Origin: a virus
Virus record (IMG/VR): IMGVR_UViG_3300029625_000050
Coordinates: 1-30,299 of that record
Direction: 5' to 3' (one strand)
Length of the DNA stretch: 30,299 nucleotides
The position numbers and the translations under genes are program-made. Below the pieces are notes generated by a model. It made no database searches, was not told the DNA's origin, and saw only the letters and a list, made by a program, of their open reading frames with translations. This document shows, piece by piece, positions 256-30,223 of this stretch; the stretch's first letter is position 1; every line of letters begins with the position of its first letter.

Positions 256-1299
256 ATGCGCGCGCGCATGATCAAGCCAGCGTTCTTTTCCGATCCGGAG
301 CTGGCCAACGTACCGATCGGAGCTCAGATGCTGTTCGTGGGGCTGTGGTGCCTGGCGGACAGGGAGGGGCGCCTGCTGGACGCACCGAGGATGATTGCCG
401 GGGCAATTTTCCCATTCCGGCAGGACGTCTCTGACGAGGACGTCGAGAATTGGCTGCAGCACCTTGCCGAGCGGCGCTTCATCATCCGCTACCAGGCTCG
501 CGGCGTGCGCTGCATCCAGATCCGCACCTTCGCCAAGCATCAGAAGATCCACCCGAGGGAGCTTCCGTCATCCTTACCCGCACCGCCTGATGACGACGGA
601 CCGAACGGCTCGCCTGATTGTTCTCTGGGCGCGCCAAGTAAACCTACTTCTCTGGGTAAGCCCAGTAAGGTGCCATCACTGGGCAAGCCCAGTGAACGCT
701 CATCACTGGGCAAACCATCACTGGGCACGCCCAGTAAACCCACTTCTCTGGGCGCGCCCGAACATGAATATGAACATGAACATGAAAACAGCGGCGATAT
801 ACAACTCCCCAACACCCCCCTTACCCCCCAGGAAGCGCCGCCGCCGCCGCTGACTCCTGTGGAAAACCATGTGGAAATCTCGCCTGGAGCGTCCAGGGTG
901 TCCGGCAACGGTGACTCGCCGCCGCTGACAGATCCGCGCTCTATCGTCCCGATCTTGGCCGAGCGGCGCGCGATGGAGCCGCGGCAGCGCCGAGCACCGC
1001 CACAGCCGAGGGACGAGGCAGGCTTGGCTATTGCTGTCGTCGCCAGGATGCTCTGCGACTGGATGGAGCATCGGGCCGAGACACTCGGGCCGCCAGATGA
1101 CGCGCTCTGCCGTCGGCTGCTGGAGGCTCACGGGATGAGCCTCGAGCGCCTCCGGGACTGGCTGCTCGGTCTGCGCCGGCGAGGCAAGCACCCATCGAGC
1201 ATACAGAGCTGGGGCTGGTTCGTGACGCTGGCTGAGGCCGACGGACGGCGCGCGACAGACGCCGTAGCCGAGGCCGCTGCAGCGGGAGGTGTGGCGTGA
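256..1299 (+). CDS. Replication initiator-like protein with internal origin
   Basis: A 347-residue protein. The ATG at 256 is chosen because AGGGAGG (242-248) lies seven bases upstream and because the product then begins MRARMIKPAFF, the usual opening of phage replication proteins with an N-terminal winged helix; a longer frame to 187 has no ribosome site. Residues 1-100 form the compact domain (hydrophobic LFVGLWCLADREGRL, then a basic segment ending KHQKIHPREL). Residues 120-168 are low complexity, made of a repeated SLGxPSKxx unit whose DNA forms iterons. Residues 169-250 are Pro-rich linker, and 252-330 a C-terminal helical domain (LLGLRRRGKHPSSIQSWGWF) that may recruit a helicase loader or helicase. 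The layout resembles lambda O. The stop overlaps the next start (TGATG). Function is inferred from architecture, not from a named family match. Confidence 0.7.
   Translation: MRARMIKPAFFSDPELANVPIGAQMLFVGLWCLADREGRLLDAPRMIAGAIFPFRQDVSDEDVENWLQHLAERRFIIRYQARGVRCIQIRTFAKHQKIHPRELPSSLPAPPDDDGPNGSPDCSLGAPSKPTSLGKPSKVPSLGKPSERSSLGKPSLGTPSKPTSLGAPEHEYEHEHENSGDIQLPNTPLTPQEAPPPPLTPVENHVEISPGASRVSGNGDSPPLTDPRSIVPILAERRAMEPRQRRAPPQPRDEAGLAIAVVARMLCDWMEHRAETLGPPDDALCRRLLEAHGMSLERLRDWLLGLRRRGKHPSSIQSWGWFVTLAEADGRRATDAVAEAAAAGGVA
621..760 (+). repeat. Iteron array inside the initiator gene, probable replication origin
   Basis: CTGGG(C/T) starts at 625, 652, 679, 706, 721 and 748, a spacing of 27, 27, 27, 15 and 27 bases. 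Most copies are the left arm of a palindrome whose right arm is GCCCAGT. The clearest is CACTGGGCAAGCCCAGTG at 677-694 (8-base arms, AA centre). Copies at 652-666 and 719-735 are nearly as good, 706 is a half site, and 625 and 748 have degraded right arms. Because 27 and 15 are multiples of three, the repeats also give the peptide repeat SLGxPSKxx. Phage iterons located within the initiator gene are known from lambda O. The match in position and design supports an origin, but no function is proven. Confidence 0.7.
761..808 (+). other. A-rich stretch next to the iterons, candidate DNA unwinding element
   Basis: Immediately after the last iteron the sequence becomes A-rich, with tandem ATGAAC/ATGAAT units (about 764-786) followed by GAAAACAGCGGCGATATACAA. 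This contrasts with the GC-rich DNA all around. In lambda the AT-rich unwinding region lies directly beside the O iterons, so a similar role is inferred here. The stretch encodes the acidic peptide EHEYEHEHEN in the initiator. Confidence 0.5.
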
Positions 1300-29317: not shown

Positions 29318-30223
29318 ATGACGTTTTCAAGCTATGGGAATGCCGAGAAAAAATGCCAGCAGCTCCGTGCGGAGCGTTATTTGAGACGCTTAACAGGCCG
29401 ATCGAGAGCGTCTCTCGTGGAGGCCGACGACGCCTGTCACTACGCCGTCAAGCCCCCGCGGAGGCTCTCAGCCTGCCGCGAGCTGATCCACGAGTGGATC
29501 GCCAGTCGGCTGCTGGCCAGACTGGGCATCCGGACCGCGGTTGTGCGGCCGATCGTTGTCAGCGAGGAAATCTCTAAGCAGTGCGGCTGGGATGCAGATT
29601 TACTCGATGCGGCTCGCGTCGATGGCGGCTGGCTCTGCGCGGCAGCAGCCTATCCGTGCGATCCGATCCGCGGTGTGATCTACGACTTCTGGCCGGATTC
29701 GATGGCGCACCTGGTTGTCAATGCGGACCATATCGTCGGCGCACTCGTAGCCGACGTGTGGATGGCTCACCAGGAGCCGCGGCAGGCGGTGTTTTACCGC
29801 GACGAGAACCGCGAGGTCTGGGCGATGATGATCGACCACGGCGCCGCACTGGGCGGATCCAACTGGGATGGTGCTGTCAGCACCTCCCTGCTCGGCATAG
29901 GCGCCCGGTGGGCATACAGAGGCTTGCACGGGATGGAAGAGCTGGATCGTTGGGCCGAGGCGGTCTGCAGGATCGAGGAGGATTGGATCAGGCAACTGTT
30001 TCGGGATGTTCCATCGCCTTGGCTTGGCGAAGGCGATGCGAGTCGCCTGGAGGAGCGTGCCGAGTGGCTGATTGCGCGCCGCGAGCCGTTGTCCGCGCTG
30101 CTATACGGCCTGATCCTGGCCGCGCCGGAGAGCTTTCCTTGCCTGCATCTGCGGATCCCTCCCCGCAGTGCACTCTCCCGCAGCACGATTTCGTTGGACA
30201 CTGATTTGCGATACAAGGAGTGA
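29318..30223 (+). CDS. HipA-like kinase
   Basis: A 301-residue protein beginning at ATG 29318, the only start in frame after a TGA at 29282; AGGA lies just before it. The family pattern is clear: HYAVKPPRR (Lys45, ATP lysine), CRELIHEWIASRLLARLGI (51-71), GVIYDFWPDS (119-128), VADVWMAHQEPRQAVFYRD (145-163) and VWAMMIDHGAALGG (167-180, Asp173 in the DFG-like position). These match the HipA-like kinase group common in soil bacteria. In E. coli HipA the loop is ATDGHAKN with a catalytic Asp; here the matching stretch is AHQEPRQ, so the Asp is replaced by Gln or Glu. It may be an inactive or re-tuned kinase. The position after the tail genes marks it as phage cargo. Confidence 0.8.
   Translation: MTFSSYGNAEKKCQQLRAERYLRRLTGRSRASLVEADDACHYAVKPPRRLSACRELIHEWIASRLLARLGIRTAVVRPIVVSEEISKQCGWDADLLDAARVDGGWLCAAAAYPCDPIRGVIYDFWPDSMAHLVVNADHIVGALVADVWMAHQEPRQAVFYRDENREVWAMMIDHGAALGGSNWDGAVSTSLLGIGARWAYRGLHGMEELDRWAEAVCRIEEDWIRQLFRDVPSPWLGEGDASRLEERAEWLIARREPLSALLYGLILAAPESFPCLHLRIPPRSALSRSTISLDTDLRYKE

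Follow-up and report, generated by a model that had tools for sequence, protein, structure and literature searches.

Iterons within a phage initiator gene: a probable replication origin in the linker-coding segment

The first protein gene of the window (the whole 30,299-nucleotide stretch of viral DNA analyzed here) carries a regular array of CTGGG boxes in its middle part, where it also encodes a repeated peptide. This raises the question of whether the array is a replication origin placed inside an initiator gene or a by-product of the protein sequence. Judging from sequence comparison, positions 622–806 are very probably a phage replication origin located in the initiator linker, with initiator binding, melting, recruitment, and origin use as its deduced functions. 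For a large phage family on which little experimental work was found, the analysis thus predicts a minimal origin whose iterons can be tested.

Initiator gene, iterons and adjoining elements

The gene product was identified as a phage replication initiation protein through PHROG 16167 (E = 1.6e-31, residues 1–113), with further matches to PHROG 2149 and 12556 (‘replication initiation protein’). In annotated phages, relatives of this initiator adjoin DnaC-, DnaB-, or P-like loader or helicase genes. No Pfam family was matched by the window protein at E ≤ 1, and solved relatives sought by sequence search gave no credible match. AlphaFold2 modeled the N-domain as a winged helix with high confidence (pLDDT 91.8). 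Its nearest solved folds are winged-helix proteins, including the RepA_N plasmid initiators 4pql, 4pt7, and 4pta, and the Rep–DNA complex 5kbj is also among the best fold matches. Comparison with 4pql gave a Z value of 8.4 over 85 aligned residues at 2.6 Å, which Fur-type and other winged-helix proteins tie. The middle of the gene encodes CSLGAPSKPTSLGKPSKVPSLGKPSERSSLGKPSLGTPSKPTSLGAPEHEYEHEHEN, and the linker contains the SLGxPSKxx peptide repeats. The C-domain is 92%, 76%, and 59% identical to those of the relatives L015, L016, and L178, respectively; its structure model is unreliable (pLDDT 51), and any likeness to the DnaD-like, primase-binding C-domain of RepA_N initiators would be conjectural. 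The features of the gene are collected in Table 1.

Table 1. Initiator gene and elements of the putative origin, in window coordinates.
Feature	Positions	Strand	Description
Replication initiator gene	256..1299	+	347 aa; ATG start; GGGAGG ribosome-binding-like motif upstream
N-terminal winged-helix domain	256..579	+	Residues 1–108; presumed to bind the iterons
Iteron 1 (box 625)	622..641	+	TCTCTGGGC-GC-GCCAAGTAA; 5/6 inner-arm pairs
Iteron 2 (box 652)	649..668	+	TCTCTGGGT-AA-GCCCAGTAA; 5/6 inner-arm pairs
Iteron 3 (box 679)	676..695	+	Perfect 20-bp dyad TCACTGGGC-AA-GCCCAGTGA; 9/9 pairs
Half site (box 706)	703..711	+	TCACTGGGC without right arm
Iteron 4 (box 721)	718..737	+	8/9 pairs; distance to iteron 3, 42 bp
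Weak iteron 5 (box 748)	745..764	+	4/6 inner pairs
Probable unwinding element	756..806	+	AT-rich; hexamer array GAACATGAATATGAACATGAACATGAAAAC at 760–789; presumed function
C-rich run	807..829	+	CCCCAACACCCCCCTTACCCCCC; also present in L016 and L178
Two DnaA-box-like sites	858..878	−	TTTTCCACA at 858–866, exact; ATTTCCACA at 870–878, one mismatch
C-terminal domain	952..1296	+	Conserved across subfamily members; presumably recruits proteins for replication from the host

The layout of the array agrees with the first-pass annotation: the six CTGGG boxes have precisely the stated positions (625, 652, 679, 706, 721, and 748), and the claimed 27-base rhythm with one 15-base step corresponds to measured steps of 27, 27, 27, 15, and 27. 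All six boxes are in reading frame 0 of the initiator gene. The statement that most of them have a GCCCAGT right arm was generous, since exactly three boxes (652, 679, and 721) do. The iterons were scored as 9+2+9 dyads, i.e., 20 bp around a 2-bp center. Matches to CTGGGCnnGCCCAG at 11/12 or better number only five in the 30.3 kb, and four of these fall within the 110-bp array. The half site at 706 had been suggested as a possible deletion scar; a 15-bp tandem duplication would explain it equally well (CATCACTGGGCA occurs at 703 and at 718). This half site is identical in the near relative L003 (~95% identical), which has the iterons of the window and in which the right arm of iteron 1 is intact (GCCCAGT).

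The A-rich tract that had been described directly after the boxes is real, with 58% AT at 756–800 versus 35% for the gene. The tract is modest at this value; its hexamer stretch has the lowest GC of the initiator gene, and a GAACAT 6-bp tandem array was found by TRF at 760–786. After the repeats, a CCCCCC-n-CCCCCC run is present in 11 of 151 initiators (815–829 in the window, and in the L016 and L178 linkers), i.e., in more genes than the 2.4 predicted by synonymous shuffles, and it is possibly a G-rich-strand structure. The pair of DnaA-box-like sites recurs with equal spacing in L016 and is absent from L178. Shortly upstream of the L016 initiator (L016:2302–2571), a stand-alone DnaA domain IV is encoded (PF08299, E = 3.6e-12). 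The bearing of the sites in the window and L016, and of the DnaA-type domain, on the origin is suggestive only.

In the proposed mechanism, dimers of the N-terminal winged helix would bind the palindromic CTGGGCnnGCCCAG iterons, the initiator–iteron complex would open the AT-rich hexamers next to them, and recruitment of the host replication machinery would fall to the C-terminal domain. The origin would thus sit where the gene codes for a disordered linker. Neither a DnaC-like loader nor DnaB was found with the PF01695 and PF03796 profiles in the window record and three related records, which are possibly fragments; the window subfamily possibly relies on loading factors of the host. GC skew, suggested earlier as a check, gave a divided result. 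The switch near 18 kb in the window, with main genes on the + strand on both sides of it, fits an origin at the left end, but the 42-kb contig of L016 has no matching pattern, and skew was therefore dropped as origin evidence.

Selection on the DNA and on the encoded peptide

In the window, the linker contains 48 direct-repeat pairs versus 11 in gene-wide synonymous-codon shuffles and 24 inverted pairs versus 6, and none of 200 such shuffles reached the observed repeats. Under a stricter shuffle of codons within the linker, the excess is modest because the encoded peptide itself repeats (P = 0.013 for direct repeats and 0.11 for palindromes). Taken alone, the window rejects this strict null only weakly, is ambiguous, and cannot tell DNA-level from peptide-level selection. 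For L003, iteron and non-iteron sites are not comparable because ~95% identity leaves too few differences.

The linkers of L016 and L178, two full-length relatives with N-domains 54–56% identical to that of the window, contain no repeated peptide. In L016, the linker carries ATTGTCnnGACAAT repeats at a spacing of mostly 22 bp, with boxes in frames 0, 1, and 2, and the excess over within-linker codon shuffles is clear for both direct (P = 0.0004) and inverted repeats (P = 0.0002). In L178, GGAAATTCCACGGC-type repeats lie 33 and 22 bp apart, again in frames 0, 1, and 2, with a significant excess of direct (P = 0.0002) and not of inverted repeats (P = 0.40). A short tandem array follows the iterons in both relatives (ATTACCTCTAC in L016 and TACTTC in L178), and the same PNTP segment comes next. 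Three full-length subfamily members that keep both flanking domains hence carry three unrelated repeat families, CTGGGCnnGCCCAG, ATTGTCnnGACAAT, and GGAAATTCCACGGC. Retention of the protein plan and the position, together with replacement of the repeat sequence, is as expected if initiator and iterons change together. A scan for the ATTGTC pattern returned 11 stretches, and an initiator of the window family was present only in the L016 contig itself.

The outcome that had been named in advance as contrary to an origin, i.e., relatives that retain the peptide repeat and lose the palindromes, is the reverse of what was seen: in the relatives, it is the peptide repeat that is lost, whereas repeats persist in the DNA, with different sequences. 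As far as sequence comparison can decide, they settle the question in favor of DNA-level selection on the linker segment. Together with the PHROG 16167 match, this selection on the same segment upholds the earlier proposal of iterons and a probable origin inside an initiator gene. The accompanying claim that the spacing is locked to the codon frame holds in the window but not in L016 and L178, where all frames are used; by this comparison, frame-locked spacing is local to the window phage and not general in the family.

For a family-wide survey, viral contigs and GTDB genomes were scanned with an N-domain profile, which gave 150 initiators chosen by N-domain similarity rather than at random and non-redundant as judged by shared 15-mers only. 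With direct repeats of 7-mers as the statistic and codon shuffles that ignore phylogeny, 70% of the 150 initiators showed an excess of direct linker repeats over synonymous shuffles at P ≤ 0.01, whereas the N-domain part did so in 0% and the final 300 bp in 4% of the same genes. In an enlarged set of 199 genes, 176 had 9-mer repeats, and 115 of these showed spacings not divisible by three. Therefore, in-gene repeats are the rule, and codon-locked spacing is not general. Repeated palindromes were found in 24 of 151 genes when identical arms were required, so the family-wide evidence rests on direct repeats. The linker DNA repeats lie outside the definition of PHROG 16167, yet they occur in 70% of the relatives, and within this large and little-studied phage family the presumed binding sites turn out to change sequence freely. 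The comparison shows the initiator linkers to be shaped by the DNA that they must contain, and neighboring members with the same protein plan and different iterons offer natural pairs for specificity swaps in mini-replicons.

Alternative readings and comparison with known origins

That the repeats are a by-product of the SLGxPSKxx peptide repeat in a disordered linker, expanded by slippage and devoid of a DNA function, would agree with the frame-0 boxes, whose steps are all divisible by three, and with window palindromes that are not significant under the strict null (P = 0.11). It is nonetheless quite improbable, as L016 and L178 have DNA repeats at the same place and in all frames without a peptide repeat, and the family-wide synonymous excess is limited to the linker. 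The palindromes might also be an operator, for autoregulation or for the downstream XRE/HTH_17 proteins, with the true origin elsewhere. Perfect dyads resemble repressor operators, HTH genes lie directly downstream, and initiators often autoregulate from iterons. However, the array lies some 370 bp inside the gene and adjoins an AT-rich tandem array; L003 keeps the iterons without the XRE gene, and L178 has iterons without either HTH homologue within the stretch examined. An operator in place of an origin is accordingly improbable, although the two roles can coexist. Highly improbable is the use of the inverted repeats as RNA or single-strand hairpins in attenuation, translation control, or priming: single-strand folding of the window array is strong (z = −7.4), but this is so for a palindromic array whatever its use, and the L178 iterons combine a strong direct excess (P = 0.0002) with no inverted excess (P = 0.40), as for protein-binding iterons.

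The window is best read as an in-gene iteron origin of a known kind, like lambda ori and the rep gene of pSK41. In lambda, the iterons lie in mid-O gene as imperfect inverted repeats of 19 bp with an adjoining AT-rich tract, their number varies between phages, and the earlier remark that the palindromic form of the window differs from that of lambda is thus wrong (PMC7466680). Lambda O and Stx-phage O share with the window a mid-gene origin, an N-terminal DNA-binding part, inverted-repeat linker iterons, and an AT-rich tract. Unlike lambda, the window has a different iteron sequence and apparently lacks a partner gene of the P or DnaC type just downstream. Phage_rep_O was not detected at E ≤ 0.1 among 48 family members; the inverted-repeat iterons and AT-rich tract inside the gene point to lambda-like working, not to Phage_rep_O membership.

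The rep gene of pSK41 encodes an N-terminal winged helix and carries its Rep boxes centrally, the linker being encoded by the origin (PMC5703833). Like the window with its predicted winged helix, the RepA_N initiators of pSK41 and pTZ2162 have a winged-helix N-domain of ~120 aa, a separate C-domain, and semi-palindromic repeats (PMC5703833, PMC7145576). However, the window is not a plasmid, and its fold match to 4pql is a tied one; no PF06970 (RepA_N) sequence match was found in the window protein or the family members searched. In the Bacillus phage SPP1, the initiator gene (gene 38/oriL) likewise contains direct repeats and an unwinding element rich in AT (PMC6316719). The likeness to SPP1, which has oriR as a second origin, is one of layout as described. 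For phage MD8, repeats within an O-like gene were already noted by the authors (PMC8508860), again a likeness by description. Members of the PHROG 16167, 2149, 1408, and 12556 families (HK639, F10, JBD44) have the N-domain of the window and DNA repeats in the linker, but most of these relatives carry a CTGATTC heptamer array that the window lacks.

Heptamer arrays of relatives and neighboring genes

Three or more (C/T)(T/G/C)GATTC heptamers are present in the linker of 123 of the 199 initiator genes, at about bp 400–560 of the gene (L097–L176 and viral loci) and with spacings of mostly 7, 8, 14, 15, and 21 bp. Units in more than one reading frame occur in 43 of the 46 GTDB genes with arrays, and (C/T)TGATTC units at 7/8-bp steps in two or three frames are the source of the LIPDSLIPDS peptide. 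Within the LIPDS/ADSL motif (97/150 genes), GAT is used for 98% of Asp and ATT for 94% of Ile; outside the motif, the same genes use them for 46% and 28%, respectively. This codon choice points to DNA-level selection. The members of the heptamer family are prophages from several bacterial phyla and include those of Pseudomonas, Massilia, Acidobacteria, Lachnospiraceae, Shimazuella, Dehalococcoidia, and others.

The heptamer array is a probable unwinding or single-strand-binding element of the relatives’ origins. The RK2 unwinding element contains ordered 13-mers, of which one strand is bound by plasmid Rep proteins (PMC4081077); if the heptamer array serves in unwinding or single-strand binding, it would parallel, in phages, the ordered repeats of the oriC and RK2 unwinding elements. 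A limited literature search for the heptamer string gave no match, and a prior description may still exist. The odds are even that this widespread family has a two-part in-gene origin, in which fast-evolving, replaceable iterons are joined to a short tandem array, mostly of heptamers, that may serve, in a sequence-specific way, as a single-strand or unwinding element and for which the window subfamily would have swapped in hexamers.

Between the initiator gene and the HTH_17 gene lies a double-XRE HTH gene (1296–1835), flanked by GGAGGTGTGGCGTGATG copies; it looks like a cassette that was gained or lost because the near relative L003 is without it. A small protein encoded near the initiator (2368–2682 in the window, L016:5291–5599, and L178:1562–1864) has no PHROG or Pfam match and is kept in all subfamily relatives at 55–88% identity. 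A tRNA-Cys gene on the − strand (91–162) adjoins the initiator gene and is possibly an attachment site or host flank. The last gene of the window (29318–30223) has a weak match to the HipA_2 kinase (PF20613, E = 7e-5), under the curated cut-off.
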